Positions 24,192-58,841 of a stretch of DNA of 64,000 nt are shown one piece after another. The stretch lies in assembly GCA_005110385.1 (NCBI GenBank), contig DUDT01000014.1, positions 186,001-250,000 of the forward strand. The letters run 5' to 3'. This stretch comes from Candidatus Melainabacteria bacterium (lineage in GTDB: Bacteria > Cyanobacteriota > Vampirovibrionia > LMEP-6097). Every line of letters begins with the position of its first letter. The stretch's first letter is position 1. The position numbers and the translations under genes are program-made. Under the pieces are notes generated by a model. The model worked only from the letters and a program-made list of their open reading frames with translations, did no database searches and was not told where the DNA came from.

Positions 24192-24312
24192 GGGACTGCT
24201 CGCAATCTTCAATTTCTGCGTTTTCGTCGTCCTCATGATCCTCATGTACCTTTAGTACACTGCGGTCATTCGTCCTCCTCAGCCTTGAACTTGTGCGTTT
24301 GTGAGCAGTCCC
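24192..24312 (-). repeat. Full-length 121-bp palindromic element, copy B
   Basis: Bounded by inverted repeats gggactgctcgcaa (24192-24205) and ttgtgagcagtccc (24299-24312), 13 of 14 paired. Read on the minus strand, its right half (49 bases) carries the core gaaaacgcagaaattg shared with all other copies. An internal stem TGTAC/GTACA lies near the middle. taatt flanks both sides, a possible 5-bp target duplication. It sits between the two 65-bp tRNA-derived repeats. Confidence 0.85.
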
Positions 24313-24371
24313 TAATTTAATTTAAAAAAATGGCGGAGACGAAGATCTGTAAAAGCGCCAGCTTTTACAAT
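24307..24371 (+). repeat. 65-bp direct repeat, copy 2, carrying the tRNA-Asp 3' end
   Basis: An exact duplicate of 24082-24146, followed at 24389-24400 by GGTTCAAGTCCC and at 24405-24410 by GTCGAC. A third, shorter match (20 bases) is the real tRNA 3' end at 24427-24446. Confidence 0.9.
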
Positions 24372-24431
24372 GAAAAAGGCAACCCTAGGGTTCAAGTCCC
24401 GTAGTCGACATTATTTTAATTTATTAAAAAA

Positions 24432-24508
24432 TGGCGGAGACGAAGGGACTTGAACCCTCGACCCCCTGCGTGACAGACAGGTGCTCTAACCAACTGAGCT
24501 ACGCCTCC
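24432..24508 (-). tRNA. tRNA-Asp (GTC)
   Basis: 77 nt including the encoded CCA (plus-strand tgg at 24432-24434). The acceptor stem GGAGGCG pairs with CGTCTCC (one G-T), the D arm has GCTC/GAGC, the anticodon stem CCTGT/GCAGG has loop CTGTCAC with anticodon GTC, and the T arm contains GGTTCAAGTCC. The discriminator base is G, as expected for Asp. Pieces of its 3' end are repeated downstream at 24105-24118 and 24331-24344. Confidence 0.95.
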
Positions 24509-24606
24509 GCGAGTCGACTTTTTAAAGAGAGATCACCTCTTACACATCCAATGCGTTTAAAAATCCTAGCATAAAAAATCTAAATTCGTGCCAAGATTAG
24601 ACTAGC

Positions 24607-25737
24607 TTGCGAATCAATTTCACAAATAATTTAAGATTCCTTCCTTCGCTTCTATTATTACAGGGCTTATCTTTCGCTAATGTTTATGCTCAGCCCATTG
24701 GTGTTTTACATTCTGCTGTTAAGCTCACTGAGACTGGATCTTACTCACAGTACCCGCAGGGATCTTCTGTATTAAAAGGCTACGCCTCTATTGAAGAGGA
24801 ATCTAAACTTGAAGATGAAACCTTACATTTAATTAGCCTTGAAAGCTTCGATCCACGCTTAATTTTAAGTGGTGATAGTTTAATTTTCAGAGCTACGCCT
24901 GAAGTAGGGGAACTTTTTAAAATTCCAGTGAACACTTATATAAAAGCGTCAATAGAAGGGGACTCTACGAATAATAGGAATTTTCTTTTTAGAATTACCG
25001 ATCTTATTTCTGAAAATGGTTCTAGCACGGCAGCTTCAGGGCTTTTTAAAATAGATACTAAAGAACAGGATAAAAGCTTAGAAAATAAAATTAGTGAAAA
25101 TGCTTTTCTTAGAACTAGCTCTAATATGGTTCTTGGAAGCTTAAGTGGTAGTTTGAAAACTTTAAAATATGGTGGTTTACCATTAATTATGTTAACTGAT
25201 GGATTTTCAGTAGTAACTGGAGCTGGTCTAGGAGCTGTTTATGGGATAGTAAATTCTTTTGTGGCTGCCCCACAGCCATTTTATTCAGAGCCGAGTGGTT
25301 CACAACTTAAGGTGAAATTTATAGAACCGATAAAAGCTGACCTGTATTCTTTTATAAAATCTGCGCCTGAGTTTCCTCAGCCTCTACCAGTTGACGATAT
25401 TAATCTTGAGGTAAAAATTACTCAGTCGAAAAAGTTTTATTCTTATAATTTTGGTGATTCTATATTTCTGGAATTAAAAATAGAAAATGCTTCAGAGAAA
25501 GACTTTGATTTGCAAGATTTTATTTTAGTAGATAAAACTAATTCTCAGGAATTTTTACCAAATCCATTTTTATTTAATTTTAATTCTGAAGAGCTTTCTG
25601 AGATTAATTCAGATACGACACGCACACTTAAGCTCTGCTATTCGCTCGGTAAATTTTCTAATTTAGATAATTACAATTTAAGAATTTTAGATCCTGTAAC
25701 TGCAAAGCATTTATATTATGTGCCTATACAGATTTAA
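24607..25737 (+). CDS. Secreted (periplasmic) hypothetical protein
   Basis: 376 aa from a TTG start. A signal peptide is visible: LRFLPSLLLLQGLSFANVYA, with cleavage after VYA before QPIG. The mature protein is beta-rich. A Gly/hydrophobic stretch lies at about 195-222 (GLPLIMLTDGFSVVTGAGLG...), and a C-terminal Ig-like part (LEVKITQSKKFYSYNFGDSIFLELKIEN) resembles domains that bind or assemble at the cell surface. No family name can be given. It stands alone, between tRNA-Asp and efp. Confidence 0.75.
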   Translation: MRINFTNNLRFLPSLLLLQGLSFANVYAQPIGVLHSAVKLTETGSYSQYPQGSSVLKGYASIEEESKLEDETLHLISLESFDPRLILSGDSLIFRATPEVGELFKIPVNTYIKASIEGDSTNNRNFLFRITDLISENGSSTAASGLFKIDTKEQDKSLENKISENAFLRTSSNMVLGSLSGSLKTLKYGGLPLIMLTDGFSVVTGAGLGAVYGIVNSFVAAPQPFYSEPSGSQLKVKFIEPIKADLYSFIKSAPEFPQPLPVDDINLEVKITQSKKFYSYNFGDSIFLELKIENASEKDFDLQDFILVDKTNSQEFLPNPFLFNFNSEELSEINSDTTRTLKLCYSLGKFSNLDNYNLRILDPVTAKHLYYVPIQI

Positions 25738-25805
25738 AGAGACTAAAACATATCAAAAATTTTTTAATAATTTAGTTTTAAGGTTTTAGAAACCTCGCCA
25801 TAAAG

Positions 25806-25814
25806 TGTTAGAAT
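25806..25814 (+). promoter_or_regulatory. Extended -10 promoter of efp
   Basis: TGTTAGAAT at 25806-25814 ends 11 bases before the efp ATG, so the leader would be only about 5 nt. Confidence 0.5.
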
Positions 25815-25825
25815 AACTCTAGTTT

Positions 25826-26392
25826 ATGTACACACCTACTGATTTCAAAAATGGCTTAACCCTAGAATGGAAGGGGAATTTATACCAAGTCGTGGAATTT
25901 CTTCACGTTAAACCTGGTAAGGGAGCAGCTTTCGTTAGAACTAAATTCAGAAATTTGACGACTAAAAAAATTTTAGAAGAATCTTTCAGAATGAATGAAC
26001 AATTTAAACCAGCTCATGTAGAAAGAAAAGAAATGCAGTATCTTTACCAGAGTGGTGATAATTATGCTTTTATGGATATGAAATCCTATGAACAAGTTGA
26101 ATTGTCTAAAGATGATTTAGGTGATAACGTTACTGATTTCCTAAAAGAAGAAATGGTCTGTTCAATTATGTCTTGTGATGGAAAAATCTTAAGTGCAGAA
26201 TTGCCTAACTCCATTGAGCTCATAGTACAAGATACGGCACCGAATGAAAAAGGAAATACCTCATCTGGTGGTTCTAAACCAGCGGTTCTTGAAACTGGTG
26301 CTACTATTGATATACCTTTCTTTGTTAATATCGGGGATAAAATTCGATTAAATCCTCAAACGAGAGAATATCAAGACAGGGTGAAAGTATAA
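25826..26392 (+). CDS. efp: Translation elongation factor P
   Basis: Rescues ribosomes stalled on polyproline. 188 aa with the three beta-barrel domains of EF-P. The tip loop is HVKPGKGAAFVRTKFRNL, with an unmodified-type Lys flanked by PGKG as in cyanobacterial proteins. The C-terminal signature (ETGATIDIPFFVNIGDKI) is complete. Its stop overlaps the accB start by one base (TAATG), so efp-accB-rnc-argB form one operon. The efp-accB pair is common in Cyanobacteria and Firmicutes. Confidence 0.96.
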   Translation: MYTPTDFKNGLTLEWKGNLYQVVEFLHVKPGKGAAFVRTKFRNLTTKKILEESFRMNEQFKPAHVERKEMQYLYQSGDNYAFMDMKSYEQVELSKDDLGDNVTDFLKEEMVCSIMSCDGKILSAELPNSIELIVQDTAPNEKGNTSSGGSKPAVLETGATIDIPFFVNIGDKIRLNPQTREYQDRVKV

Positions 26393-26892
26393 TGAAAACC
26401 ATTGATAAGGCAGAAAAGAGTATGAATAATGTAGAAGTTCCTTTAACAGCTATAAATCAATTAGCTGAAATTCTTAAAACTCAAGAATTGAGCGAGATAG
26501 AGCTTGAATTTGAAGGACAGTACCGTATTAAGGTAAAAAAAGAAATTACTGGAACTGTGTTTAGTAGTGTATCTGCACCAGCAATGCACTCCACTGTAAA
26601 TGCTGTTTCTGAAACAGCTCCTGTAAAGGTTACTGCACCCAACAAAAACCTTTTTGAAGTAAAATCACCAATGGTTGGTACCTACTATGCATCTCCATCT
26701 CCAGATGCTGATGCATTTGTAAAAGTCGGAGATAGAGTTAAGAAGGGTGATACCCTCTGTATTATCGAAGCTATGAAACTGATGAATGAGCTTCCTTCCG
26801 AAGTTTCAGGCATAGTAAGAGAGATTTCAGTAGATAATTCTCAAGCTATATCTTTTGGCGAAGTAATTATTAAAATCGAAAAAGATGCCTAA
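26392..26892 (+). CDS. accB: Biotin carboxyl carrier protein of acetyl-CoA carboxylase
   Basis: Carries the biotin that shuttles CO2 in the first step of fatty acid synthesis. 166 aa. The N-terminal part (LAEILKTQELSEIELEFEG) is followed by a flexible Ala/Pro/Val linker and the biotinyl domain with EAMKLMNEL (the biotinylated Lys). The linker is shorter than in many BCCPs. A second ATG at 26422 (MNNVEVPL) is possible, but the TAATG overlap with efp supports 26392. It overlaps rnc by 8 bases. Confidence 0.93.
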   Translation: MKTIDKAEKSMNNVEVPLTAINQLAEILKTQELSEIELEFEGQYRIKVKKEITGTVFSSVSAPAMHSTVNAVSETAPVKVTAPNKNLFEVKSPMVGTYYASPSPDADAFVKVGDRVKKGDTLCIIEAMKLMNELPSEVSGIVREISVDNSQAISFGEVIIKIEKDA

Positions 26893-27571
26893 GCGGATTT
26901 TCTCCTTAACTTCTTTCTTAAATCATTTAAATTTACCATCTAATAGACTTTTAGAGCAGGCCTTCACTCATAAATCCTGTTCTAAAGACGATCCTAATCT
27001 TCTAAATAATGAAAGATTAGAATTTCTCGGTGATGCCGTCTTAAAACTCGTCTTCAGTGAATACCTTTCCGATAATTTCCCAGAGGAAGATGAAGGAAAT
27101 TTATCTAAATTCAGAGCTAGACTCATTTCGGATGACTTGCTTGCGGAACTTGCTTTAGAAATGGACTTCAGGAAACTTATACGCATAGGCAGAATGTTAA
27201 AAGGACAAAAAAAGCTACCCAATTCTATTTACGGAAATGCCTTAGAAGCCTTAATAGCAGTTATATACAAAGAAGCTGGTTATGATAAGGCTCGTGAATT
27301 TATTTTAAATGCTTGGGAGAATCATATCGAAAGAGCTATCACTGAATCCATCGCTCATAACTATAAAGCCTTGTTAATAGAAAAATTTCAAGCTAAATAT
27401 TCTAAAGCACCAGTCTTTGAAACAGTTATGACAAGTGGAGAAGCTCACGAAAGAAGTTTTGAAATAGCTGTACTCTTCGATGGCAAAGAGCTGAGTAAAG
27501 GTACTGGTAAATCTAAAAAAGAAGCTGGACAAAACGCGGCCAAAGCCGCTTTAGACAGGTTATCATTTTAA
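26885..27571 (+). CDS. rnc: Ribonuclease III
   Basis: Cleaves double-stranded RNA, maturing rRNA and regulating mRNAs. 228 aa: the endonuclease domain has NERLEFLGDAVL (residues 42-53), and a dsRNA-binding domain follows (HNYKALLIEKFQAKY...SKKEAGQNAAKAAL). At the second metal site the sequence is YGNALEA: the Asp equivalent to E. coli D114 is Asn118, while the more critical Glu (E121) is kept. Similar Asn variants occur in other lineages, so activity is likely. It lies in the efp operon, with 3 bases before argB. Confidence 0.93.
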   Translation: MPKRIFSLTSFLNHLNLPSNRLLEQAFTHKSCSKDDPNLLNNERLEFLGDAVLKLVFSEYLSDNFPEEDEGNLSKFRARLISDDLLAELALEMDFRKLIRIGRMLKGQKKLPNSIYGNALEALIAVIYKEAGYDKAREFILNAWENHIERAITESIAHNYKALLIEKFQAKYSKAPVFETVMTSGEAHERSFEIAVLFDGKELSKGTGKSKKEAGQNAAKAALDRLSF

Positions 27572-27574
27572 GTC

Positions 27575-28438
27575 ATGCCCGATTATGCTAACACCGACAG
27601 AGTAAAAATTCTTTCTGAAGCTCTGCCTTATATTCAAAAATTTCACTCCAAAATATTTGTTATTAAATATGGCGGTTCAGCTCTAACTAACCCTGATATA
27701 GAGAAGAGTACCATTAAGGATTTGGTGCTTTTAAATAGTGTCGGTATAAAAGTCGTGCTGACCCATGGTGGCGGCCCTGAAATCAATCAAATGCTCACTA
27801 AGATAGGTAAAGAAATTAAATTCGAGAATGGACTCAGACACACTGATACAGAGACGATGGAAATAGTCGAAATGGTTTTACACGGTAAAATACAAAGGCG
27901 TATAGTAAGTTCTATCAACTGTGCGGGAGCAAGAGCTATAGGACTTTCTGGTCGTGATGGCAGAATCATGGTGGCTGAGAGAGATTCACGTATTGCCGAA
28001 GGCAATATGGTAGGTGAAATTAAAACTACTAATCTAGCTTTAATTCATGAAGTTTTTAAATTAGGTTTAATTCCAGTAATCAGTTCTATTGCACCTAATG
28101 AAGCTGGTGAGGCTTTTAATATTAACGCTGATACGATGGCAGCTGAGCTTGCTATAGGGCTTCAAGCTGATAAATTAATTCTTATGACAGATATACAGGG
28201 TATACTTGCAGATAAAAATGATCCAGAGTCTTTAATAAAAGAGATGAATCTAGAAACAGCTAGGAGATTAGAGTCTAAGGGAATTATTCAAGGTGGCATG
28301 ATTCCGAAGACCGACTGTTGCATTAAAGCTATAGAGCATGGAGTTAAAGAAGCGATTATTCTTAATGGCTTAAAAGAACACAGTTTACTTTTAGAGACCT
28401 TTACTAATGAGGGGGCTGGGACTTTAATTCGGAATTAA
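27575..28438 (+). CDS. argB: Acetylglutamate kinase
   Basis: Second step of arginine synthesis, phosphorylating N-acetylglutamate. 287 aa. It has the amino-acid-kinase fold with KYGGSA near residue 30, the THGGGPEINQML substrate loop, GLSGRDG and the ATP-side DIQGILADKNDP. The ATG at 27575 is 3 bases after rnc. It is the only arginine-pathway gene in the window apart from argS, so the pathway is scattered. Confidence 0.95.
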   Translation: MPDYANTDRVKILSEALPYIQKFHSKIFVIKYGGSALTNPDIEKSTIKDLVLLNSVGIKVVLTHGGGPEINQMLTKIGKEIKFENGLRHTDTETMEIVEMVLHGKIQRRIVSSINCAGARAIGLSGRDGRIMVAERDSRIAEGNMVGEIKTTNLALIHEVFKLGLIPVISSIAPNEAGEAFNINADTMAAELAIGLQADKLILMTDIQGILADKNDPESLIKEMNLETARRLESKGIIQGGMIPKTDCCIKAIEHGVKEAIILNGLKEHSLLLETFTNEGAGTLIRN

Positions 28439-28439
28439 T

Positions 28440-29886: not shown

Positions 29887-29952
29887 AGGATTTAAAGGTC
29901 TAGAATTTTATAAGTATAGCGGGATTTTTTTAGTATATGATTATTCTAGCTA

Positions 29953-31887: not shown

Positions 31888-32012
31888 ATAGTATCCCTCT
31901 CTGGCTTGAAGCTCCAAGCGGCAAGGCTTTTAGCCTAGTGACTTATCTTGAAATTAATATTTTCTCATGAATTAATGAGATCTTAACTTGATATTAATTT
32001 TGTTTGTCTCTA

Positions 32013-32945: not shown

Positions 32946-32961
32946 CTATAATCAAGCATTG

Positions 32962-35979: not shown

Positions 35980-36351
35980 ATGTTCAAGTACGATACAGAG
36001 AATCTTCCACGCATTACCTTTAAAGGAAAGAGGCTTACTGAAAAGCAAATCGCAGTTCTAGAGTTTTTAGCACAGGGGCAGACGAATACAGAAATAGCCG
36101 AAAATCTTTTCCTCTCTGTAAGAACCGTAGAATCGCACATCTCTAGAATTAGAGGAATTATCAGTGAGCATATGCCACAGTCACAGAGAATAAGTGATAG
36201 GCAACTCGTTTTATTCGCTAAAGATCTAATTGATGGCTTTAAAATTTTCGACATACTGAAAAGCGGCATGAATGAAGGCTTTGAGCTATCAGAATTTAAA
36301 ACTTATCAAAAAACAGTAAGCCTGAATAATGATAGATATTATATTCAATGA
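35980..36351 (+). CDS. Small LuxR-type DNA-binding regulator
   Basis: 123 aa. Residues about 18-65 are a LuxR/GerE helix-turn-helix (LTEKQIAVLEFLAQGQTNTEIAENLFLSVRTVESHI, described in parts: LTEKQ, NTEIAENL, VRTVESHI). There is no receiver or ligand domain, so it is a stand-alone regulator. A clear AGGAG lies 10 bases before the ATG. The gene ends inside a copy of the palindromic repeat: one extra A in CAATGAG creates the TGA. Without it the frame would run through the element (HEAGENAEIGVVQRS) to a TAG at 36404-36406. Confidence 0.85.
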   Translation: MFKYDTENLPRITFKGKRLTEKQIAVLEFLAQGQTNTEIAENLFLSVRTVESHISRIRGIISEHMPQSQRISDRQLVLFAKDLIDGFKIFDILKSGMNEGFELSEFKTYQKTVSLNNDRYYIQ

Positions 36352-36392
36352 GGCGGGCGAAAACGCAGAAATTGGAGTTGTGCAGCGGTCTC
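36348..36392 (+). repeat. Half-copy of palindromic repeat at the 3' end of the LuxR-type gene
   Basis: Reads atgaggcgggcgaaaacgca then gaaattggagttgtgcagcg and gtctc. Its core is identical to that of 36470-36510, but the outer end (gtgcagcggtctc) matches the ligA and wecB copies. It encodes ENAEIGVVQRS in a frame one base off the LuxR frame. Confidence 0.85.
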
Positions 36393-36396: not shown

Positions 36397-36518
36397 GGGC
36401 GTGTAGCCAAACGAACAAGTTCAAGGTCTGAGGAGGATGAATGACCGCAATGTATCAAGCATACATGAGGATCATGAGGCGGGCGAAAACGCAGAAATTG
36501 GAGTTTCGCTACACGCCC
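36397..36518 (+). repeat. Full-length 122-bp palindromic element, copy A
   Basis: Ends are inverted repeats gggcgtgtagccaaac (36397-36412) and gtttcgctacacgccc (36503-36518), 15 of 16 paired. Internal stem TGTAT/ATACA. The interior is about 80% identical to copy B at 24192-24312, whose ends have a different sequence. It lies 4 bases after the half-copy at 36348 and stops 3 bases from the argS stop codon. Confidence 0.9.
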
Positions 36519-36521: not shown

Positions 36522-38417
36522 TTACATTTTCTCTGGTGCAGAAATGGCAAGTATACTAAGAGCATTTTTTATAACTATCTTAGAAGCTGCCACCAGAGAT
36601 AGCCTAGCCTTCATAACCTCTTCGTTTTCACCTATAATACGATTTTCATTATAGAACTGATGAAATAAGCTAGCTAAATTCTTTAAGTAGACTGAGATTT
36701 TATAAGGTGCCCTGATATCAGCAGCATCAATAACAAGCTTAGGTAATTCAATCAATTCTAAAACTAAGCTTCTGATAGTTTTCAACTGCTCTTCACTATG
36801 ATATTCATCAGAAAAGAGTTTCTTGAAATTTGCAGAAAATGTTTTAAACTCTTCATTTAATAAACGTTCCAGCTCATCTACTTCAAAAATAGCAGCTTCT
36901 TCCGTATTATCAACTATATTGATACGAGGGCTTACTAAATTACGAAATATACTTGCCGAGCGGGCATGTGCATACTGTATGTAGTAAACTGGATTATCTT
37001 TATCATGTTTTTGCGCTAAAGCTAAATCAAAAACCATGCGATTATTGGCTTGGCTATCCACGAGAAAGAATCTCAGAGCATCTTTACCGACTTCAGCTAA
37101 AAGCTCATCAACGTTAACTATAGTGCCTTTGCGCTTAGACATTTTTTTCTCAACGCCATCTTCTTTAACGGAAACCAATTGAATAAAAATCAACTCTAAC
37201 TGATCTGAATTATAGCCAATAGCGTGAATCGCCCCCCTGATACCAAGCTCTTGTCCGTGATGATCACTGCCCCAAACATTAATTAACTTATCAAAGCCTC
37301 TGTCAAATTTATCTTTATGATAAGCGATATCACCAGCTAAATAAGTGAACATGCCTTGAGATTTCCTAAGGACTCTATCTCGCTCATCACCAAAGGATTT
37401 CGCTCTAAACCATAGAGCCGAGTCTTCTTCATACACAGCAGAGACCTCATGGGCGTGCAGCGGAACTCCAATTTCTGCGTTTTCGCCCGCCTCATGATCC
37501 TCCGTCACATCTTCTTGCTTTACTTTTGCTGCTTTAAGTGTTTCACAGATTAACTCAATTTTATTTTTATCATTAATTTTTACTTGATGTAGATTCTCGT
37601 TCTCCGAGTACCACGTATCGAAATGAACTTCTATGTCAGCTAAAACTTTCTTCTGTAAATCAAGAAAAAGACTTTTCGCTAATTTACCAGCTATTTCTTT
37701 TGCTTGATCACCAGCAAGGGAAGCCGCATCCAAATAGCCTTCTAGCTTAGATTTATAAATCTCCGGCTTTAAAACATCTAGCATAGAATCCAGTGGATAA
37801 GCATCCACTGGATAATTTTCCTTAGTGATGTGACCCTCTTGAATTTGAATTGCAGCTTGAGCAGAGAGTGAAAGCTTTTCTATCTGCACACCAGCATCAT
37901 TAATATAAAATTCACTAGATACATCGTAACCAGCCCAGTCAAGTAATCTTGCAAGAGAATTACCCAGAACTGCTTGCCTGCCATGACCTAAATGTAGATT
38001 ACCAGTAGGGTTCGCTGAAACATACTCTATAAGAAAGCGATGCGGCTCCATATTAGCCCGAGCTTCTTTAGATAAACGACCATAATTATCTTTCTCTTGA
38101 TGAATCTCTATCAGAGCAGATTCCAGAAAATCCCAATTCAAACGAATATTAATAAATCCAGGACCCGCGATAGATATATCACCAATGGCAACTACATCCA
38201 AATGCTTAACTATACTTTGAGCTATCTTTACTGGTGGTAGTTTCGCCTCACGAGACAATTTGAGGGCTATACTTACGGCGATATCGCCATGATCAGGGTT
38301 TTTACATCTCTCCACATCTATATAATCAGAAAAACTTTTCAGCTCACCTAAGTCAGATGCCGCAATAGCTTTATTTATAGCTATTTGGAATAAATTACGA
38401 ATCTTGCTGCTTAACAT
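36522..38417 (-). CDS. argS: Arginyl-tRNA synthetase
   Basis: Class I synthetase charging tRNA-Arg. 631 aa, longer than the usual 550-590. HIGH-like HLGH occurs in NPTGNLHLGHGRQAV, the KMSKR-like motif in KKMSKRKGT, and the C-terminus ends LAISAPEKM. Part of the extra length is an insertion at residues 307-322 (DHEAGENAEIGVPLHA) encoded by a copy of the palindromic repeat, placed in the loop before the conserved DSALWFRAKSFGD block. A full repeat copy abuts its 3' end. The 5' end overlaps the upstream 38395-39585 gene by 23 bases. Confidence 0.95.
   Translation of the reverse strand: MLSSKIRNLFQIAINKAIAASDLGELKSFSDYIDVERCKNPDHGDIAVSIALKLSREAKLPPVKIAQSIVKHLDVVAIGDISIAGPGFINIRLNWDFLESALIEIHQEKDNYGRLSKEARANMEPHRFLIEYVSANPTGNLHLGHGRQAVLGNSLARLLDWAGYDVSSEFYINDAGVQIEKLSLSAQAAIQIQEGHITKENYPVDAYPLDSMLDVLKPEIYKSKLEGYLDAASLAGDQAKEIAGKLAKSLFLDLQKKVLADIEVHFDTWYSENENLHQVKINDKNKIELICETLKAAKVKQEDVTEDHEAGENAEIGVPLHAHEVSAVYEEDSALWFRAKSFGDERDRVLRKSQGMFTYLAGDIAYHKDKFDRGFDKLINVWGSDHHGQELGIRGAIHAIGYNSDQLELIFIQLVSVKEDGVEKKMSKRKGTIVNVDELLAEVGKDALRFFLVDSQANNRMVFDLALAQKHDKDNPVYYIQYAHARSASIFRNLVSPRINIVDNTEEAAIFEVDELERLLNEEFKTFSANFKKLFSDEYHSEEQLKTIRSLVLELIELPKLVIDAADIRAPYKISVYLKNLASLFHQFYNENRIIGENEEVMKARLSLVAASKIVIKNALSILAISAPEKM
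37451..37499 (-). repeat. In-frame half-copy of palindromic repeat inside argS
   Basis: The minus strand reads gatcatgaggcgggcgaaaa, cgcagaaattggagttccgc, tgcacgccc: 49 bases differing from 36470-36518 at two positions. It starts exactly on an ArgS codon and encodes DHEAGENAEIGVPLHA. Confidence 0.92.
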
Positions 38418-42308: not shown

Positions 42309-43520
42309 TTAGAGTTTTTTTATTAAGGCAAAGATATCTCTGCTGCTTTCAGGTCTTGCAAATCGATACAAATTTTTCTTCATCGCCGATATTTTCTCAG
42401 GGTTCTTAGCTAAGTCTAAAAGCAAATCAGCAATCTCCTTTTGCGGAGAGTATCGCGGAATTCCATTTTCTGCATTTTCACCACCAGAAAAATTATCTTG
42501 CCGAATCATAAAACCGCAATCCGCCTTAACTAAAGCCTCTGCATTTTTAGTCTGATGATCATGAGCAGCCCAAGGTAAAGGAATTAGTATCGGTACTATA
42601 AGCGACACTGCCATTTCAGCACAAGTCATAGCACCAGACCTACAAATAGCGACGTCAATAGTTTTAGAAATATTCGCCATTTCATGGGTATAACTTAAAA
42701 CCTTATAATTAGAATATTTCTGAGGATCACCATTTAAATATTTATTTACGTGTTCATTAAAAAGCTTAGAGCCGGTAATGTGCGTAATAGATATTTCTTT
42801 GCCTTCAATCGCAAGTCTTTTATTAAAATCCTCAAAATCTTTAAGTAAAATGCCTATACTATCATTAACGAACTGGGAACCCTGACTACCACCAGTTACT
42901 AAGACCCTCAAATGATTTTCATCACGGGGTTCACGCTTGGCAGCAGCCCCATAAGCGGCTTCCCTATAAATATTAATAAAGTCCTGCGAAACTGGATTAC
43001 CCGTGTAACGATATTTATCATTAAAACTTATATTTATCGGAAAGCCTAAGCTCACACAACTCGCAAATATTCTAAATAATTTGTTTACTAAACCAAAATT
43101 ACTATCAAGATTATGAATTAAGAATTTAGTTTTTGTTGTTACGCAGGCAAGAAATACTGGCGCTGCCACATAGCCACCAGTACCCATAACTACGTCGATT
43201 TTATTCTCTCTTAGATAATTCACTGAGCATTTATAAGCTTTAAAAAAAATGCTAAACCATTCTAGATTTTCTTTCAAAGAATTATTTCGAGAAGGAAGCT
43301 TAGGGGAATTAATCGGGAGAAACTTAATATATTCTTTACGCACACACAATTCCTGCTCAAGTTTTCCTTCACCACCGATATAATATAAAGCATTTTTTTC
43401 AGCTCCGAGGGACTGCTCGCAATCTTCAAATAACTCAGCAACAGCAAGGCAAGGATAAATATGTCCCCCAGTGCCTCCTCCCGTAAATGCAACTCGCACA
43501 GCAATTTCCTTTATCGACAT
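42309..43520 (-). CDS. murG: UDP-GlcNAc--undecaprenyl-pyrophosphoryl-MurNAc-pentapeptide transferase MurG
   Basis: Adds GlcNAc to lipid I, giving lipid II at the inner membrane. 403 aa against the usual 355-370. The diagnostic loops are FTGGGTGGHIYP, VMGTGGYV, VTGGSQGSQFVND and the C-terminal CRSGAMTCAEM...PWAAHDHQTKNAE. The additional length includes two pieces that match the palindromic repeat: EDCEQSL (residues 31-37) and GGENAENGIPR (about 346-356). ATG start at 43520. It converges with the gene ending at 42285. Confidence 0.95.
   Translation of the reverse strand: MSIKEIAVRVAFTGGGTGGHIYPCLAVAELFEDCEQSLGAEKNALYYIGGEGKLEQELCVRKEYIKFLPINSPKLPSRNNSLKENLEWFSIFFKAYKCSVNYLRENKIDVVMGTGGYVAAPVFLACVTTKTKFLIHNLDSNFGLVNKLFRIFASCVSLGFPINISFNDKYRYTGNPVSQDFINIYREAAYGAAAKREPRDENHLRVLVTGGSQGSQFVNDSIGILLKDFEDFNKRLAIEGKEISITHITGSKLFNEHVNKYLNGDPQKYSNYKVLSYTHEMANISKTIDVAICRSGAMTCAEMAVSLIVPILIPLPWAAHDHQTKNAEALVKADCGFMIRQDNFSGGENAENGIPRYSPQKEIADLLLDLAKNPEKISAMKKNLYRFARPESSRDIFALIKKL
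42455..42485 (-). repeat. Diverged in-frame half-copy of palindromic repeat inside murG
   Basis: The minus strand reads ggtggtgaaaatgcagaaaa then tggaattccgc, aligned with the argS copy core (gcgggcgaaaacgcagaaat, tggagttccgc). Same reading frame, peptide GGENAENGIP. Confidence 0.65.
43409..43429 (-). repeat. Outer arm of palindromic repeat (copy-B type) inside murG
   Basis: 21 bases (gggactgctcgcaatcttca plus a on the plus strand) are identical to the outer end of the full copy at 24192-24212. It encodes EDCEQSL near the MurG N-terminus, in the loop after the first Rossmann helix. Confidence 0.8.
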
Positions 43521-51140: not shown

Positions 51141-51418
51141 AAACTATCATTGATTAGCCTTTTAATATTATCCCTGATCATGGCACAGCGACGATTCAGG
51201 GCGCAAAGAAGATCTCCACCAGAAGCTTTAAGTTCGCCCTGACCTACTATACAACCCCGTTTACCCTTAAAAGCAAAATGTTTATACTTTAAAAATAACT
51301 CCTTCAGTATATTTGGATAACAAGTAGCCTGCTCTGAAGAAAATAAAATATTTTTATCTCTGTATTTCCTAATATCCATAAGCATTTCTTTGATTTTTTT
51401 CTGATTTTCTAATTTCAT
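51137..51418 (-). CDS. Small hypothetical protein coupled to wecB
   Basis: 93 aa, basic, with three Cys (EQATCYPN, RGCIVGQGE, LNRRCAMIRD). Its ATG overlaps the wecB stop (ATGA-type, 4 bases), so translation is coupled. No membrane segment or known domain. Possibly a regulatory or accessory protein of the envelope sugar pathway; this rests only on position. Confidence 0.6.
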   Translation of the reverse strand: MKLENQKKIKEMLMDIRKYRDKNILFSSEQATCYPNILKELFLKYKHFAFKGKRGCIVGQGELKASGGDLLCALNRRCAMIRDNIKRLINDSF

Positions 51419-52800
51419 TTAATTGGGGCAGTTTTAATGATTTTAATTATCTTCTTTGCCGCATCCCCATTCCCATAGAGGGACTTTTTACCCTTTTCAA
51501 TTTCTGTTTGACTATTATTAAGTAAAGATTTAGTCATTAACTGAGAGATAAGACTCTTAATCGCAAATTTAATACTTTTGGAATCAGGACTTAGTCTCTC
51601 ACTTAGACCCTGTTCTAAATATTCCTCTCTCTCTGCCTCCTCTCGCATAACAAGAGTATATTTATTTAGATAAGCCGCCTCTTCTTGGACGCCGCCACTA
51701 TCAGTAATTATAAAGAATGCATTCTGCATTAACTGTATAAACTCCCAGTAAGTCACCGATTCCAGCAAACAAAGACCTGAAATATTCATAGATAATAGCT
51801 TTTCAGATAATTTTAAAAAATTTTCTTTTGCATGCGGGTTATTATGCAGGCATATAGTAAATTCTATAGTTTCTTCGCAGTGTTTGGGAAACTTAGTTTC
51901 TGGTTTTTTAAGATTCTCCCTACTTTGTTCTTGAAGAATCTGAAAGATACTTTCACAGAGTGTTGCTTGAAATCCACTGCTGATGTTTTCTCGTCTATGA
52001 CTAGTAATTAGAATATACTTTTTCGCATCTAGCCTAGGTTCATTTCTGGAGCTCTTTTCAACAATAGTAGAATTACCAAGCTTTAAATTCTTATTATCAA
52101 TTATGCTGTGAGCTTTAAAAAGAGCATCTATGCCAGTGTTTCCAGTGTTAAATATATTGTTAGCAATAGCAAATTCCTTTAAATCTAGCGAAAGTTTAAG
52201 ATTAGGATGATCAATATTCAATTGTGATATAGCTATATTCTTTAAAATCATTTTCTCCTGAATAAGCCTTCTGTAAACCTTCTCACTGGGGCAGAAATGA
52301 TAGTCAGCTATCTGACTAATAACACGCCTAGAGAGTTCTTCGGGAAATGGGCTTTTTGGGTTAACCGTTCTTAGACCAGCTTCTACATGAGCTACCCTAA
52401 TATGATTATAAAAGGCTGCTAAAGCAGCCTGCACAGCACTTAAAGTATCTCCCTGCACTATAACTAAATCTGGTTTTTCTCTGCGAAAGAGCAGATCTGC
52501 CTCAGTAAGGAGCTTTGCTGCAAGCTCCGCTAAGCTAAGTCCTTGATTTACTAGGCTAAATTCATAATCTGGCTGTATATCCCAAAATTCCAAAAGATCA
52601 CTGAGAATGAGTTTATTGTGTTGATTGGTGTGTACCCACTTAATCTCAGGGATTGCTTTAGGAGACCGCTGCACCACTCCATTTCCTGCATTTCCCTCGC
52701 CTTCATTTTCTACGAGTTTACTTAAGCTTTGGAATTCCAAATATACGGGTGCTAGTTTTATATATTCAGGTCTAGTACCGACTATAATAAAAATTTTCAT
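51415..52800 (-). CDS. wecB: UDP-N-acetylglucosamine 2-epimerase (non-hydrolysing)
   Basis: Makes UDP-ManNAc from UDP-GlcNAc for surface polysaccharides. 461 aa versus the usual 360-380. Core motifs are VGTRPEYIKLAPV, QGDTLSA, VEAGLRT, SHRRENI and DSGGVQEEA. Extra length comes from an insertion at residues about 25-50, which includes EGNAGNGVVQRS encoded by a palindromic-repeat copy, and from loops near 220-290. The AGGAG ribosome site lies 5 bases before the ATG. Divergent from the ABC ATPase with overlapping -10 boxes. Confidence 0.9.
   Translation of the reverse strand: MKIFIIVGTRPEYIKLAPVYLEFQSLSKLVENEGEGNAGNGVVQRSPKAIPEIKWVHTNQHNKLILSDLLEFWDIQPDYEFSLVNQGLSLAELAAKLLTEADLLFRREKPDLVIVQGDTLSAVQAALAAFYNHIRVAHVEAGLRTVNPKSPFPEELSRRVISQIADYHFCPSEKVYRRLIQEKMILKNIAISQLNIDHPNLKLSLDLKEFAIANNIFNTGNTGIDALFKAHSIIDNKNLKLGNSTIVEKSSRNEPRLDAKKYILITSHRRENISSGFQATLCESIFQILQEQSRENLKKPETKFPKHCEETIEFTICLHNNPHAKENFLKLSEKLLSMNISGLCLLESVTYWEFIQLMQNAFFIITDSGGVQEEAAYLNKYTLVMREEAEREEYLEQGLSERLSPDSKSIKFAIKSLISQLMTKSLLNNSQTEIEKGKKSLYGNGDAAKKIIKIIKTAPIK
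52662..52709 (-). repeat. In-frame half-copy of palindromic repeat inside wecB
   Basis: The minus strand reads gaaggcgagggaaatgcagg then aaatggagtggtgcagcggt and ctc, matching the 36348-36392 copy including its outer end gtgcagcggtctc. It encodes EGEGNAGNGVVQRS. Confidence 0.8.
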
Positions 52801-52817
52801 CGAAACTCCTAGTCTTA

Positions 52818-52823
52818 TATAAT
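52818..52823 (+). promoter_or_regulatory. -10 box of the ABC ATPase, overlapping the wecB promoter region
   Basis: TATAAT 8 bases before the GTG at 52832, so the transcript should begin at about the start codon. On the other strand TATTAT occupies the same place for wecB. Confidence 0.5.
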
Positions 52824-52831
52824 ACTAGTCA

Positions 52832-53974
52832 GTGGTTCAAGTTTCTTTAAATAAAATATCTAAAAAATATGATGAGAATTACATCATCAAAGATATCAGC
52901 CTAGAATCTCAAGATAAAGAATTTATAGTTTTAGTAGGACCTAGTGGTAGCGGTAAGAGTACGATTATTAGAATAATCGCAGGCTTAGAAGGTGATTTTG
53001 AAGGTGAATTAAAATTCGCTGGTGAAACGGTAAAGGACTTAGCAGCGAAAGATCGTAACCTCAGCATGGTTTTCCAGAATTATGCGCTTTATCCCCATAA
53101 AACAGTTTTTGAGAATATCGCCTTCCCTTTAGTAATTAAATCTGAGCCTAAAAATCTAATTAAAGAAAAAGTACATAAAGTAGCCGGGAAGCTTGATTTG
53201 ATGAAATATCTAGAACGCAAGCCTGGGCAGCTTTCTGGCGGGCAGAAGCAGAGGGTCGCTGTGGCTAGAGCTTTAATTAAAGAACCGCAGCTTTTTTTAA
53301 TGGATGAACCCTTAAGTAATCTTGATGCGAAGTTAAGAACCTCTACTAGACAGGAAATACGCAAGCTCTATCAGGAATTAAACAGTACTTTTATTTATGT
53401 AACTCATGATCAAATCGAGGCTATGAGCCTTGGCGATAGAATCGCCATATTACATGAAGGTAAGATACAGCAGTTTGATACTCCATCCAAGATATATCAT
53501 GAGCCCGCAAATACTTTTGTTGCGAGCTTTATCGGCTCCCCCCCGACTAATTTATTTGAACCAAACTCAACTCTATTTCAAGCTTTAAAAGAGGAACTGA
53601 TCCCTAAACTCAATCGCGAAGATTTAATCATCGGCATTCGCCCAGAATATTTTTATTTAACCGCAGAAAATTTAGATCATGAGGACAACGAAAACGCAGA
53701 AATTGGAGTTCCGCTACACACCCTTGAGGCAGAATTAGTTAATATTGAGAACCTAGGTGAAGAGATTCTAGTTTATGCAAAGCTAGATGAAAATTCAGGC
53801 AAGCTAAATGGTAGCGAATACTTGATAGCTAAAATTGATAATGCAGAGTATATTAAATTACTTAATGGCAAATGCAGCGCCTTAAGTCCTGAAAACCCAG
53901 TAAAATTACAATTATTCTTTGATCCTAAAATGATTTACCTTTTTGATAAGCGATCTAGTATGCGAATCAGTTAG
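52832..53974 (+). CDS. ABC transporter ATP-binding protein, MalK/UgpC type
   Basis: 380 aa. Walker A GPSGSGKST (about residue 35), the Q-loop MVFQNYALYPH, signature LSGGQKQRVAVARAL, Walker B LFLMDEPLSNLDAKLR and a C-terminal TOBE/OB regulatory domain. Such ATPases power carbohydrate or glycerol-phosphate importers and can serve several permeases. No permease or binding protein is nearby. Residues 282-297 (DHEDNENAEIGVPLHT), in the TOBE region, come from a palindromic-repeat copy. GTG start. The next gene follows after 12 bases. Confidence 0.92.
   Translation: MVQVSLNKISKKYDENYIIKDISLESQDKEFIVLVGPSGSGKSTIIRIIAGLEGDFEGELKFAGETVKDLAAKDRNLSMVFQNYALYPHKTVFENIAFPLVIKSEPKNLIKEKVHKVAGKLDLMKYLERKPGQLSGGQKQRVAVARALIKEPQLFLMDEPLSNLDAKLRTSTRQEIRKLYQELNSTFIYVTHDQIEAMSLGDRIAILHEGKIQQFDTPSKIYHEPANTFVASFIGSPPTNLFEPNSTLFQALKEELIPKLNREDLIIGIRPEYFYLTAENLDHEDNENAEIGVPLHTLEAELVNIENLGEEILVYAKLDENSGKLNGSEYLIAKIDNAEYIKLLNGKCSALSPENPVKLQLFFDPKMIYLFDKRSSMRIS
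53675..53723 (+). repeat. In-frame half-copy of palindromic repeat inside the ABC ATPase gene
   Basis: gatcatgaggacaacgaaaa, cgcagaaattggagttccgc, tacacaccc: 49 bases, about 90% identical to the argS copy. It starts exactly on a codon and encodes DHEDNENAEIGVPLHT. Confidence 0.92.
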
Positions 53975-53986
53975 AATATAAAGATT

Positions 53987-54796: not shown

Positions 54797-55614
54797 AAAG
54801 ATCCGAGTAGGACTAAGCTTTTTCCTACACTAGAAATCCTAATCCTTTTTTCAATTAGCTGAAAAGCTGAGGTCTTTTTAATTTTATTAAACAGCTTTAA
54901 ATATAAAGAGTAGGCAGCGTAAACACCTAAACGCACACCTTGAGGGAGTTCTTTGATGCCTATAGCAGCAGCATTAAAGTCTTTTTGAATATCTGCTTCT
55001 AATTCTTTTTTAATTTCAGTACTGAAATTTTCTAAATCCAAGTCTGGAAAATAAGTTCTACCCATACCTTCATAATCAGCTTTTAAATCTCTTAAAAAAT
55101 TTACTTTTTGAAAAGCTGATCCTAAGCTCATCGCAGGGCTTTTAAGCTTCTGATATAGCCTATCATCACCTTCACAGAATACTCTTAAACACATCAGTCC
55201 GACTACTTCTGCTGAACCAAGTATATATTTTTTAAAGCTATTTAAATCATATTCCTTCTTTTCTAAATCCATCGCCATGCTCTCTAAAAAGCACTCTATA
55301 AGCTCATTATCTATGTAGTACTTATTTACAGCCCACTGAAAACTATTAAGGATGGGGTTTAAACTAACTTGATCCTTAATGGCTTTATAGGTATCTGCTT
55401 TAAACTCACTCAATAAAGCTGCTTTATCATGCTCATGAAAAGTATCGACTATCTCATCAGCGAAACGCACGAAGCCATAAATGGCATAAATAGCAGCATG
55501 GTATTTTCTGTCTAAAAGATAAATGCCGAGCGAAAAAGAACTGCTATAAGCATTAGTCGTAAGTTTACTGCATTTAAGACAGGTCTCATTATATAGAGCT
55601 AAATTAGTAGACAT
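54775..55614 (-). CDS. crtB: Phytoene/squalene synthase family protein (CrtB-like)
   Basis: Head-to-head prenyl transferase. 279 aa. The first Asp-rich motif is FADEIVDTFHEHD, the second FLRDLKADYEGMGRTYFPD, and YHAAIYAIYGFVR is the usual N-terminal block. Whether it joins C20 units (phytoene) or C15 units (dehydrosqualene) cannot be told. It is downstream of the crtI-like gene on the same strand (57 bases between), so together they make a coloured carotenoid or a related C30 product. Confidence 0.85.
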   Translation of the reverse strand: MSTNLALYNETCLKCSKLTTNAYSSSFSLGIYLLDRKYHAAIYAIYGFVRFADEIVDTFHEHDKAALLSEFKADTYKAIKDQVSLNPILNSFQWAVNKYYIDNELIECFLESMAMDLEKKEYDLNSFKKYILGSAEVVGLMCLRVFCEGDDRLYQKLKSPAMSLGSAFQKVNFLRDLKADYEGMGRTYFPDLDLENFSTEIKKELEADIQKDFNAAAIGIKELPQGVRLGVYAAYSLYLKLFNKIKKTSAFQLIEKRIRISSVGKSLVLLGSFYKNSGR

Positions 55615-55671
55615 TAAGCACCTTATTCTAGACTAAAATCATAACTCAGTTAGAAGTAGCTTAGGTGAATT

Positions 55672-57150
55672 TTACTTAGAATATCTATGAGCTATTTCCT
55701 TTGCCACTATTTCACCAGAAATTATAGAAGGAGGAATTCCTGGACCAGGGACAGTAAGCTGCCCAGCGTAATAAAGATTATGCACTCGCTTACTCTTCAC
55801 CCTAGGCTTTAAAACTGCTGTCTGCTTAAGAGTATTAGCTAGACCATAAGCATTACCTTTAAAAGCATTATAGTCCTGAATAAAATCAGAGTGTGCATAA
55901 GTCTTTTTATAAACTATATGATCTCTTATATTCTGCTTGCAGAGTCTTTCTAGTCTATCCATAATTAAATTAAAGTAAGATTCTCTAAGAGCTTCATTAT
56001 CATTTAGCAGTCCAGACGCTACTGGCATTAATATAAATAAATTTTCATGACCTTCTGGAGCTACACTTGGGTCTGTTCTTGATGTACAGGATACATAGAA
56101 AAGAGGTCTAGTCGGCCACTGTGGTTCTTTATAAATCTCACGAGAATGTTCATCTAATGACTCATCAAAGAAAAGATTATGATGTTCTAAGGCTGGAATC
56201 TTTACATTAGTACCTAAATAATAGATAAGCCCAGATGGTGCCATAACTCTAGAATTCCAATACTCTTTAGAATAGGACTGGTATTCTTCTAGTAGTAAAT
56301 CTTTTTCAACATGAGCATAATCAGCTCCAGCTAAAACCACATCAGCATTAACTTCTAATCCTTTCACGCTAATCGTATCGACTAAACCATCTATTACATT
56401 AATTTTTTTCACTGGACTAGATGAATACATCTCTACGCCTAGGCTTTCACAGACTTTTACGAAACCTTTTATAATCTCATTCATTCCACCCATCGGATAC
56501 CAAGTCCCTAAAGCCATATCAGCATGATTCATCATGCTGTAAAGAGCTGGAGTCTCTTTAGCAGTGGCTCCTAAAAAGAGAATAGGGAATTCGACTATGC
56601 TTCTTAGCATAATATTTTTAAAATGTTTTTCACTATAAGATCTAAAGGAATTAAATAAATCACATTGAAGTAAACCGCCGATTATCTCTAAATCCATAAA
56701 TTCAAAAATACTAAGACTTGGTTGCGGAATCATTTTCCTTAGAGCTATTTCATAACGATACCGAGCTTCTTCTAAAAATTCCCTAAGCTTATCTGCTGAA
56801 CCTGTTTCATAACTCTCAAAAAGAGTGTAAATATCATCAAGATTACTAGGCAAGGAGATTTGATCATTTTCACTAAAGAAAACTTTATAAGAGGGTTCTA
56901 ATCTTTTTAATTCATAAAAATCACTGGTTTTTTGCCCAAAATCTGCGAAAAATTTATCAAATATTTCTGGCATCCAATACCAACTCGGCCCCATATCAAA
57001 TTTAAAACCATTTTCCTCTAAAATCCTTGCTCGGCCACCAAACTGTTCATTTTTCTCAAATAATTTGACGTTAAAGCCATATTTAGCAAGATAAGCAGCC
57101 GCACTTAAGCCTGCAAATCCCGAACCAATAATTACTGCTGTTTTAGACAT
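55672..57150 (-). CDS. crtI: Phytoene desaturase family protein (CrtI-like)
   Basis: FAD-dependent desaturase of carotenoid synthesis. 492 aa. The N-terminus AVIIGSGFAGLSAAAYLAKYG is the dinucleotide-binding fold, followed by GGRARILEENGFKFDMGPSWYWMP. The C-terminal signature is NLYYAGQLTVPGPGIPPSIISG. These match the bacterial CrtI/CrtN group rather than cyanobacterial CrtP/CrtQ. ATG start at 57150. It is divergent from the 57179 gene and first in a pair with crtB. Confidence 0.88.
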   Translation of the reverse strand: MSKTAVIIGSGFAGLSAAAYLAKYGFNVKLFEKNEQFGGRARILEENGFKFDMGPSWYWMPEIFDKFFADFGQKTSDFYELKRLEPSYKVFFSENDQISLPSNLDDIYTLFESYETGSADKLREFLEEARYRYEIALRKMIPQPSLSIFEFMDLEIIGGLLQCDLFNSFRSYSEKHFKNIMLRSIVEFPILFLGATAKETPALYSMMNHADMALGTWYPMGGMNEIIKGFVKVCESLGVEMYSSSPVKKINVIDGLVDTISVKGLEVNADVVLAGADYAHVEKDLLLEEYQSYSKEYWNSRVMAPSGLIYYLGTNVKIPALEHHNLFFDESLDEHSREIYKEPQWPTRPLFYVSCTSRTDPSVAPEGHENLFILMPVASGLLNDNEALRESYFNLIMDRLERLCKQNIRDHIVYKKTYAHSDFIQDYNAFKGNAYGLANTLKQTAVLKPRVKSKRVHNLYYAGQLTVPGPGIPPSIISGEIVAKEIAHRYSK

Positions 57151-57164
57151 ATTGAAGATACAGC

Positions 57165-57170
57165 TATAAT
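57165..57170 (+). promoter_or_regulatory. -10 box of the 57179 gene
   Basis: TATAAT, 8 bases before the ATG at 57179, predicting an almost leaderless message. It lies in the 28-base gap shared with the divergent crtI. Confidence 0.5.
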
Positions 57171-57178
57171 CATAACTA

Positions 57179-57622
57179 ATGAGAATTTTTATTTTTGTTT
57201 TTTTCAGTCTCTTCTTCTTTAGTTCACTATACTTTAATCATCCAGCTTATAAACTTGAAGCTGAGCTTGATGACGAAGTAGATATAAATGATCTGAACTC
57301 AGATAAAAGATATTATGAATTAGTAAATAAAAGATTTAAACCAGATCAAGATGAGTTTTACTTAGATTCTATTTATTCTTTAGGTGATAATAACTGGGCA
57401 AGTATATCTCGTTCAAAGGAGGTCAGAGCAAGTGATCTACATAGAAGTGGCTTAAGCTATACAGCAGGTAGTCCACTTAATGATTATTTAGTAATCGAAG
57501 AAATTATACCCTCAAAAAAATCAGTTATTATCCGTGATACAAGAAATGAAAAATTTTTCCAACTGAGAATGAGCTATGGCTCTGCTAAGTCAAGATTAAT
57601 TCCTATCATAAACAAGAACTGA
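57179..57622 (+). CDS. Secreted or anchored hypothetical protein
   Basis: 147 aa. The first 22 residues (MRIFIFVFFSLFFFSSLYFNHP) form a signal peptide or membrane anchor. The mature part is acidic at first (ELDDEVDINDLNSDK), then forms a small beta-rich domain ending RDTRNEKFFQLRMSYG, similar in style to bacterial SH3-like or pilus-assembly (PilP-like) beta domains; this is only a resemblance. The 3' end overlaps the convergent gene by 27 bases. Confidence 0.7.
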   Translation: MRIFIFVFFSLFFFSSLYFNHPAYKLEAELDDEVDINDLNSDKRYYELVNKRFKPDQDEFYLDSIYSLGDNNWASISRSKEVRASDLHRSGLSYTAGSPLNDYLVIEEIIPSKKSVIIRDTRNEKFFQLRMSYGSAKSRLIPIINKN

Positions 57623-58753
57623 AGTGATTCTATATTTACCTAATTTTTTAGAATTGGTAAAAACTGCTAGGTAATAGGTTCCAGCCGCTACTCTTCTTTC
57701 TATATTAAAATTCAAAGGAGCTAAATCTGCCTGTAACTCACGACCCTGATAATTATACAGACGTCCTTGTATTGATAGTAAAGTCTTATCCCGTGTCTTA
57801 GATGGTCTTGCCATTAAAAACAGCTCACCTGGCTTATCGACTGTGATTTTAATAATATCTACATCACCGAGATAATTAATGCTGGACTTTATAGATTTTT
57901 TATAAGTATTTTTCTGAGGATTCCTTATGGTAATAATTTCTTTTCCCGTAAAATTAATGATTGAGTCAGAGTCTTCATCAACAATGGCTCCCGTATGTAT
58001 AATGGATAGGGTGTAATTTGCAGAAATTTGCTCTTCACCCTGAATTACTATAATATACTTCCCGGCAGCTAAGTCATGAAGATATTGCTTAGCAGCAGAA
58101 GCATCAGCTTCTTGAATTAAATTATAATTTATGTCATAAAGACTGAATTTAATAGGAAAACTAGAAGCTTCAAGTGAAAAGTTTATTTTACCTTCTTGTT
58201 TTAAATCAAAACTAAAATAATCTGCATCACCATAATAGTTAATAGTCTTGTTGACAATCACACTTGGGCTAACCTGTGGATTGAGCGTAACAACTGAGCT
58301 CGGATTTATATTATTAGCGACATCGTCACTGAGTGTTCCTAAGGCTCGAGTAGTAACTTTAAGTGTATAAAAACTATCTATATCACTACGGTTATCTAAC
58401 ACAATAAAATAAGTCCCTGCGCTAAGTTCATAAACTATATGAGAATTAGCTTTCGCACCATTATTATTATCAAAAGCTAGTAATTTTTCATTCTGGGTAT
58501 ACAGCTTCAAATAAGGATCTACATCTCCGGAGGTTTCTATATCAAGGTAAGAATTGCTAGGTATAACGACTCTGTAAACATCAATATCATCAGCTACTTC
58601 AAATAAGCCTTGAACCTGAAAGCTAGACTGTAGATTAAAATTAAAATCCACTTTACTATTAGGAGCTATATAATCTGGCTGATCCAGAGCGGCAAAAGAC
58701 GTCCCACAACTAAGAAGAAAAAATAAAAATAGAGTAAAAAATCTTACTCTCAT
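57596..58753 (-). CDS. Exported protein with repeated PPC domains
   Basis: 385 aa. Signal peptide MRVRFFTLFLFFLLSCGTSFAA; LLSC is also a possible lipobox. The mature protein has three tandem units of the bacterial pre-peptidase C-terminal (PPC) fold: each has a D..Y/F-x-F/V start, a DPYLKLYTQNEKLLAFDNN-like strand pair and AGTYFIVL or AGKYIIVI at the end (visible near residues 105, 215 and 350). No protease domain is present. PPC domains act as secretion or binding modules on the cell surface. Confidence 0.8.
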   Translation of the reverse strand: MRVRFFTLFLFFLLSCGTSFAALDQPDYIAPNSKVDFNFNLQSSFQVQGLFEVADDIDVYRVVIPSNSYLDIETSGDVDPYLKLYTQNEKLLAFDNNNGAKANSHIVYELSAGTYFIVLDNRSDIDSFYTLKVTTRALGTLSDDVANNINPSSVVTLNPQVSPSVIVNKTINYYGDADYFSFDLKQEGKINFSLEASSFPIKFSLYDINYNLIQEADASAAKQYLHDLAAGKYIIVIQGEEQISANYTLSIIHTGAIVDEDSDSIINFTGKEIITIRNPQKNTYKKSIKSSINYLGDVDIIKITVDKPGELFLMARPSKTRDKTLLSIQGRLYNYQGRELQADLAPLNFNIERRVAAGTYYLAVFTNSKKLGKYRITSVLVYDRN

Positions 58754-58793
58754 GCAAGTTAAGTCTAGTATATCAAAATTATAATTTTGTTAA

Positions 58794-58841
58794 GGGCGTG
58801 TAGAGAAACTCCAATTTCTGCGTTTTCATCGTCCTAATGAC
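58794..58841 (-). repeat. Half-copy of palindromic repeat forming the 3' end of the O-antigen-ligase gene
   Basis: The minus strand reads cgtcattaggacgatgaaaa, cgcagaaattggagtttctc, tacacgccc. The outer end is the copy-A type. In the host reading frame CAT-GAG of other copies has become CAT-TAG, which is the stop codon of the upstream gene. Confidence 0.85.

Follow-up and report, generated by a model that had tools for sequence, protein, structure and literature searches.

The DNA examined here is a 64-kb window (64,000 nucleotides, positions 186,001 to 250,000 of contig DUDT01000014.1) from the 1.91-Mb, 25-contig genome of a Candidatus Melainabacteria bacterium (G000), and its subject is a dispersed palindromic repeat that lies both between genes and, in frame, inside housekeeping genes. 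Two full copies are present. The first, a hairpin of 121 nt on the minus strand at 24192-24312, is intergenic, has the arms GGGACTGCTC and GAGCAGTCCC, is part of our alignment A1 and scores 143.6 bits with the covariance model R1 described below; on either side stands TAATT (24187-24191 and 24313-24317), which its sequence and the duplication statistics given below mark as a 5-bp target duplication. The second, which has one extra base and so measures 122 nt, occupies 36397-36518 on the plus strand, has the arms GGGCGTGTAGC and GCTACACGCCC, is likewise recognised by R1 and is flanked by ctttt and ctgtt, identical at four of five positions. Immediately upstream of it is a half-element with the arm GTGCAGCGGTCTC (36344-36391, plus strand), and a TGA inside that half-element (36349-36351) closes the open reading frame (ORF) 35980-36351. 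Another half-element (58794-58842, minus strand) lies at the 3' end of ORF 58834-60444 (minus strand), whose stop codon, TAG at 58834-58836, was created by a changed base in the repeat. At both places the element itself thus supplies the stop codon of a gene, and many other half copies stand directly after stops.

The remaining pieces lie within genes. Half-elements occur in argS (37451-37499, minus strand, in ORF 36522-38417, minus strand) and in the gene of a UgpC/MalK-like ABC ATPase (53675-53723, plus strand, in ORF 52832-53974), a site at which the same-genus genome G001 has a half copy and a full copy (L097). Core searches recovered diverged half-elements, all on the minus strand, in ligA (6594-6642, in ORF 5749-7860), murG (42446-42494, in ORF 42309-43520) and wecB (52662-52710, in ORF 51415-52800), each of these ORFs also being on the minus strand; murG contains in addition a shorter remnant of the 3' arm that encodes FEDCEQSL (43409-43435, minus strand). 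NCBIfam supports the identities of LigA, ArgS, MurG, WecB and the ATPase, and the in-gene pieces are in frame, encoding a peptide of the form (D)HExxENAE(I/N)G(V/I). A 15-base core occurs exactly at six sites in the window; within three mismatches there are 13 sites vs 4.7 expected by shuffling, and none of 100 shuffles reached 13. Adding the further degenerate copies in ligA, murG and wecB brings the total to about ten. An earlier note, made from the letters of the window alone, had proposed at least ten sites with a common core, two full palindromes of 121-122 bp and half-elements sharing one frame, one orientation and a DHExxENAE-type peptide in these five genes, two of them in murG, and all of this holds. 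The note gave putative LuxR-type and O-antigen-ligase labels to the genes whose 3' ends carry the element. The full copy at 24192-24312 is surrounded by 110-nt repeats that are 86% identical (24082-24191 and 24307-24416), hold part of the neighbouring tRNA-Asp (24432-24508) and resemble tandem partial tRNA copies.

Across the source genome the 15-base core is found 84 times exactly and 163 times with at most one mismatch (2 for the reversed control), and the full element has 52 BLAST matches. The earlier note had named a lack of further copies as an outcome that would defeat its interpretation; copies are instead abundant. A 19-base core with at most one mismatch gave 172 and 84 copies in two genomes of the same genus, four copies in one further member of the family and none in 56 of the 60 genomes listed. 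The two same-genus carriers (G001 and G002 below) are Cyanobacteria bacterium REEB446 and Candidatus Caenarcaniphilales bacterium RE-15aug16-7. Because they include a named Caenarcaniphilales genome, the host belongs to Caenarcaniphilales, a non-photosynthetic order of the Cyanobacteriota, and not to Rickettsiales. The window of this non-photosynthetic cyanobacterial relative also encodes a phytoene desaturase (55675-57150; NF058655, 704 bits).

Numerous copies are intergenic. Among the copies inside ORFs of at least 120 codons, orientation and codon phase are the same in 72 of 73 copies in G000, 52 of 53 in G001 and 23 of 24 in G002; these statistics, like those on target duplication, were computed on stretches around element copies. 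The 73 copies of G000 are spread over 51 different ORFs. As most copies have about four of their six frames open, chance among open frames would place 20.3 of the 73 in the preferred one. That frame encodes a hydrophilic, acidic and stop-free peptide, GTVAERTSSRLRRTNDRSVLxVHEDHEDDENAEIGV..., and selection for a soluble acidic peptide is probably the simplest reason for a single frame. Most in-gene copies are 3' parts of the element with variable 5' ends. At a murQ-like locus one genome has a half copy and a full copy and another has only a fused half, which is the pattern that recombination between two cores would produce; the short in-gene pieces look like 5'-truncated or recombined remnants of full insertions, not independent units. 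There are also mini versions of about 45 nt that contain only both arms and the core AACGCAGAAATTG (L102 1664, minus; L107 1925, minus; L130 691, plus; L088 5455, minus).

The unit of about 121 nt forms one end-to-end hairpin in alignment A1, which comprises 68 full copies (65 from the genus and three from genome G006). A 16-bp outer stem is followed by CAA.UUC/GAA.UUG, then by a ladder of four tandem G.A/A.G mismatches with single Watson-Crick pairs between them, and then by AUGACC/GGAUCAU and the central GUGUAC/GUACAU hairpin; both the central hairpin and the outer stem covary. Two-sided, compensatory changes occur at 24 of the 39 pairs, 97% of cells are paired vs 27-43% when the partners are slid by one to three columns, and there are 252 doubly changed cells vs 61 in shuffles. 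From A1 we built the covariance model that the earlier note had recommended (R1), and from a further alignment, A3, a broader one (R2). The outer arms are several unrelated sequences, each self-complementary: GGGACTGCTCGC, GGGCGTGTAGCC, GAGACCGCTGCAC and GGCACTGTTGCC. On the plus strand the outer stem has 15 G-U and six A-C pair types, an excess that leans towards plus-strand RNA without being decisive. Folding gave z = -7.6 as RNA for one copy and the weaker though significant z = -3.3 as DNA for another; these scores do not settle RNA versus DNA. A second, longer form has some 80 additional nt in its loop, with two further hairpins, and is also in frame (L056 3280-3480, L027, L151, L073, L114 and others), with a peptide of the type VISSDAE..ASHVSGSYPSKQKYKLDLSSL. 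An autonomous version, longer still and with a gene inside its loop, was also considered; this second form is the only lengthened one seen in the stretches around copies. Nor is the repeat a known RNA family: Rfam 15 has no model matching a long-form copy at E <= 5, and nothing relevant for copies from Listeria, G015 or G004.

Several observations indicate that the element moves. Among 64 distinct full copies, the five flanking bases match at 61.6% of positions vs 34.9% in a side-shuffled null (z = 11), and there are 12 perfect 5-bp duplications vs 0.78 expected; the same copies show no such signal at lengths of 2-4 or 6-10. Since 121 and 5 make 126 nt, or 42 codons, a full insertion keeps the reading frame. 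The three genomes of the genus could be compared site by site, with a median flank identity of 92.5%. Of 44 comparable copies, 25 differ in length by at least 25 nt between G000 and G001, the commonest nonzero difference being exactly 126 nt; these loci were picked for holding copies and so do not represent the genome average. Filled sites can be set against clean empty ones, with duplication of AAGAT in L059 and L078 (empty in L155) and of CTAAG in L121 (empty in L169), and the core-to-core spacing of tandem copies is mostly 126, 123 or 129 nt. Similar DNA was not found in plasmids (PLSDB) or phages (INPHARED).

The argS copy allows the protein consequences to be followed. It is a 51-nt insertion of 17 codons (residues 304-320, including the stretch DHEAGENAEIGVPLHAH) that is absent from G001 at the DNA level. 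In a protein alignment, only G000 and G002 carry the insert, which is missing from G001 and 14 other relatives. Thus orthologues without the insertion exist, as for an RPE in the broad sense (see below), and here and at other sites relatives that lack the repeat also lack the residues, contrary to the second outcome that the earlier note had said would defeat its interpretation. In the AlphaFold model of ArgS (17 orthologues, mean pLDDT 88.3) the sole segment below 50 is residues 305-318, between two strands. This very-low-confidence loop is consistent with a tolerated surface loop.

Beyond the genus, R1 detected between 11 and 45 copies per genome in six other members of the family, and 21 copies in G015, which belongs to another family. 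At E <= 1e-4 it was positive in 15 of 289 genomes of the class, namely all nine of the family, four of a second family and two with single matches elsewhere. R2 was positive in four of 292 genomes of the phylum Cyanobacteriota, in Listeria booriae (G293; 16 matches, up to 84 bits) and in 112 of 399 genomes of Pseudomonadota, the phylum of a gammaproteobacterial metagenome-assembled genome. The low rate in one phylum against the high rate in another, together with the coherent consensus of the matches inspected, argues that R2 is not promiscuous. In Pseudomonadota the consensus, judged on a subset of the matches (L269-L298), reads CAAGGC..GCGGAGUUUAC-loop-GUAAAUGAGCAU..AACGC, and the repeat is apparently common and unnamed in that phylum. 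The 16 Listeria hairpins (L261-L268) are intergenic and have the same fold and core, several with very long complementary arms. Several copies in the f8 genomes (L246, L247, L248, L206, L194) have the extended arms GACCTCTTGC/GCAAGAGG in common, which would fit the recent spread of a single subfamily with uniform ends. Inspected in-gene copies of G004, G006, an f8 genome, L272, L274, L288 and L291 keep the codon phase of the genus; some others have ambiguous high-GC frames or no clear motif. Matches to the 19-base core in Pedobacter, Polaribacter and others are probably due to chance, those inspected (L104, L068, L108) being unrelated coding sequence without the element.

The earlier note had likened the repeat to the Rickettsia palindromic elements (RPEs), of which RPE1 (TIGR01045) was described by Ogata et al. 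in two papers (2000, 2002) that PMC2229807 and PMC10969869 review. A pattern search with the central hairpin retrieved a viral contig, L210, in which the in-frame peptide of positions 7763-7889, EFEGGEARRTAVYKQVHEDSSTDTTYKLPLE, is an RPE1 domain (46.7 bits against a cut-off of 30, and 54.7 bits in a second run). R1, which was built without any RPE1 sequence, aligns end to end to this stretch (46 bits, E 1.5e-8), and R2 does the same with 62 bits; the comparison of cores is thus with a single RPE1 copy. Moreover, RPE1, several Pseudomonadota and the in-gene copies from other genera share the codon phase, and TIGR01045 gives weak, sub-threshold matches to several G015 copies that R1 had detected. 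On these sequence comparisons the resemblance to RPE1 seems to reflect homology. The peptides of the genus, and G000 and G001 in six frames, gave no match to TIGR01045, and we therefore call the Caenarcaniphilales repeat a relative of RPE1 with similar workings, not a member of it. Like RPE1, it is a palindrome of about 100-150 bp forming a single long stem-loop, it lies between genes and in frame in unrelated housekeeping genes, as RPEs in the broad sense do, and it has the same central hairpin and the same codon phase (VHED). Unlike RPE1 proper, whose hosts are Rickettsiales, it inhabits another phylum, has several arm sequences and many remnant half copies, and shows a 5-bp target duplication, whereas PMC2229807 lists the duplication of RPEs as unknown and the mobilisation of such elements as unproven. 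In-frame RPE fusions are unusually frequent (PMC10969869).

Other repeats resemble it in part. The protein-coding palindromic repeats of Wolbachia (Ogata et al., 2005, as cited in PMC2229807) are, by description, likewise in-frame palindromes in protein genes. ERIC/IRU of the Enterobacteria (127 bp) is similar in length, in its single long stem-loop and in being mostly intergenic, and one E. coli ERIC copy (L299 253-387) is matched by R2 on the right strand and with matching limits; however, that score is weak (23 bits) and does not establish kinship, and TA termini are reported for ERIC (PMC2229807). ERIC is a possible distant relative. Terminal inverted repeats and a target duplication of fixed length, here 5 bp, mark miniature inverted-repeat transposable elements (MITEs), and with Bcr1, RUP, Correia and Coxiella QMITE1 (PMC5896051; PMC3733652) our element also shares its small size and the lack of a transposase. 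In contrast to those MITEs, its terminal repeats vary among copies while pairing is kept, and no parent insertion sequence was found in searches for IS240 and Y1 transposases. REP/BIME with their RAYT (Y1) transposases are also palindromic and high in copy number, but the REP unit is far shorter and the host genus has no Y1_Tnp. The literature searched, which left most subscription papers outside, does not mention elements of this kind from Caenarcaniphilales or any other Cyanobacteriota.

Taken together, we believe, with a probability of roughly 0.85, that the repeat is a non-autonomous mobile hairpin that works like RPE1 and shares its folded core, and the best reading of its position is as the cyanobacterial branch of an RPE1-like superfamily. 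The genome counts, empty sites in close relatives, frame statistics and ArgS model bear out the earlier note in seeing a dispersed palindromic element that enters genes in frame, is like the RPEs, has a host that is not rickettsial and is tolerated in a surface loop. The 5-bp duplication with its frame-neutral 126 nt, the covariation, the identity of the host and the apparent homology with RPE1 go beyond what that note could see. Insertion with duplication of 5 bp adds 126 bp and leaves the frame unshifted; in our model, selection would then remove copies in other frames or at critical positions. Copies within genes would lose their 5' part through in-frame deletion or through recombination between tandem cores, leaving remnants of about 43-51 nt. 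Folding would matter at an RNA or single-stranded DNA stage of the cycle, and mobilisation would be in trans, by a separate putative enzyme.

Several points weigh against this reading. The unrelated arm sequences are not what one would expect of a single transposase reading a terminal repeat, and in roughly half of the full copies no more than three bases of the duplication match. No mobilising gene was found by searches for PF13610 and PF01797, other transposases and reverse transcriptases not having been searched: the IS6 family, hinted at by the end GGCACTGTTGC, was rejected as mobiliser on the absence of the IS6-type (IS240) transposase PF13610 from all three genomes of the genus, and a RAYT/Y1 transposase on the absence of Y1_Tnp (PF01797) from G000, G001 and G002. 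The origin of the half-elements rests on few comparisons, such as that of the murQ-like locus. Covariance-model E-values are rough, the score of L210 is not wholly independent because the contig was first found by the central-hairpin pattern, and all genomes compared are metagenome assemblies.

The alternative that we take most seriously, while still thinking it unlikely, is that template switching (palindrome correction) in replication keeps the two arms complementary and that the element is a plain derivative of a DNA transposon. Near-perfect outer-arm palindromes of several unrelated sequences, two-sided change at 15 of 16 outer pairs and a strand that folds as DNA too would all suit such copying. 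Yet the central hairpin and the isolated pairs of the G.A ladder show compensatory changes too, in places where copying between arms would remove the G.A mismatches alongside, and G-U exceeds A-C on the plus strand; moreover, this explanation touches only how the fold is maintained, not mobility. It is less probable again that the repeat is kept for a regulatory function, as a structured RNA or an mRNA-stability element, with its in-gene copies accidental. The strong covariation, the G-U excess and the many copies directly behind stop codons would fit, and the comparable ERIC affects mRNA stability (PMC2229807), but presence that varies between close genomes, 5-bp duplications and the invasion of dozens of unrelated coding frames are marks that mobile elements leave. 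Regulation could still be a secondary role.

The two protein-centred explanations seem to us very improbable. One conserved peptide frame across 51 ORFs might suggest that the inserts are useful modules (ligand, localisation or interaction peptides) spread by selection for the peptide; against this, the proteins that carry them have unrelated functions, closely related genomes differ in the copies they hold, many copies are decayed, the ArgS insert is predicted to be disordered and numerous copies lie outside genes. We give slightly less credence still to the idea that the inserts are removed from RNA like introns, or bypassed by the ribosome, so that normal proteins result. Small size, high structure and residence in housekeeping genes agree with this, but such removal would make reading frame and stop codons irrelevant, whereas 72 of 73 copies keep a single frame open; genes also retain truncated remnants that lack the hairpin.

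We consider it about an even bet that RPE1, the Caenarcaniphilales, Listeria and Pseudomonadota hairpins and perhaps ERIC form one ancient superfamily of mobile hairpins of about 121-128 nt, with a covarying fold, the core CAAGGC...GNAGNGUAC-loop-GUACAUGAGNAU...AACGC and one reading frame, in which the in-frame invasion of genes by whole codons (121 + 5 bp) is recurrent and not a rickettsial oddity. For 25 years protein-coding palindromes have been seen mainly as a feature of Rickettsia and Wolbachia, with their mechanism of insertion unknown (PMC2229807). In the Caenarcaniphilales, members of another phylum, an element of this kind has invaded genes on a large scale, and closely related genomes supply the empty sites, the fixed 5-bp duplication and the arithmetic of 42 codons by which insertion is automatically in frame. 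The covariance model makes the origin and spread of RPE1-like elements searchable across bacteria, and with hundreds of genomes sorted by whether they carry the element, a comparative hunt for the mobilising enzyme becomes tractable. Furthermore, the Caenarcaniphilales offer a natural experiment in how far essential enzymes tolerate inserts of about 14-42 residues.

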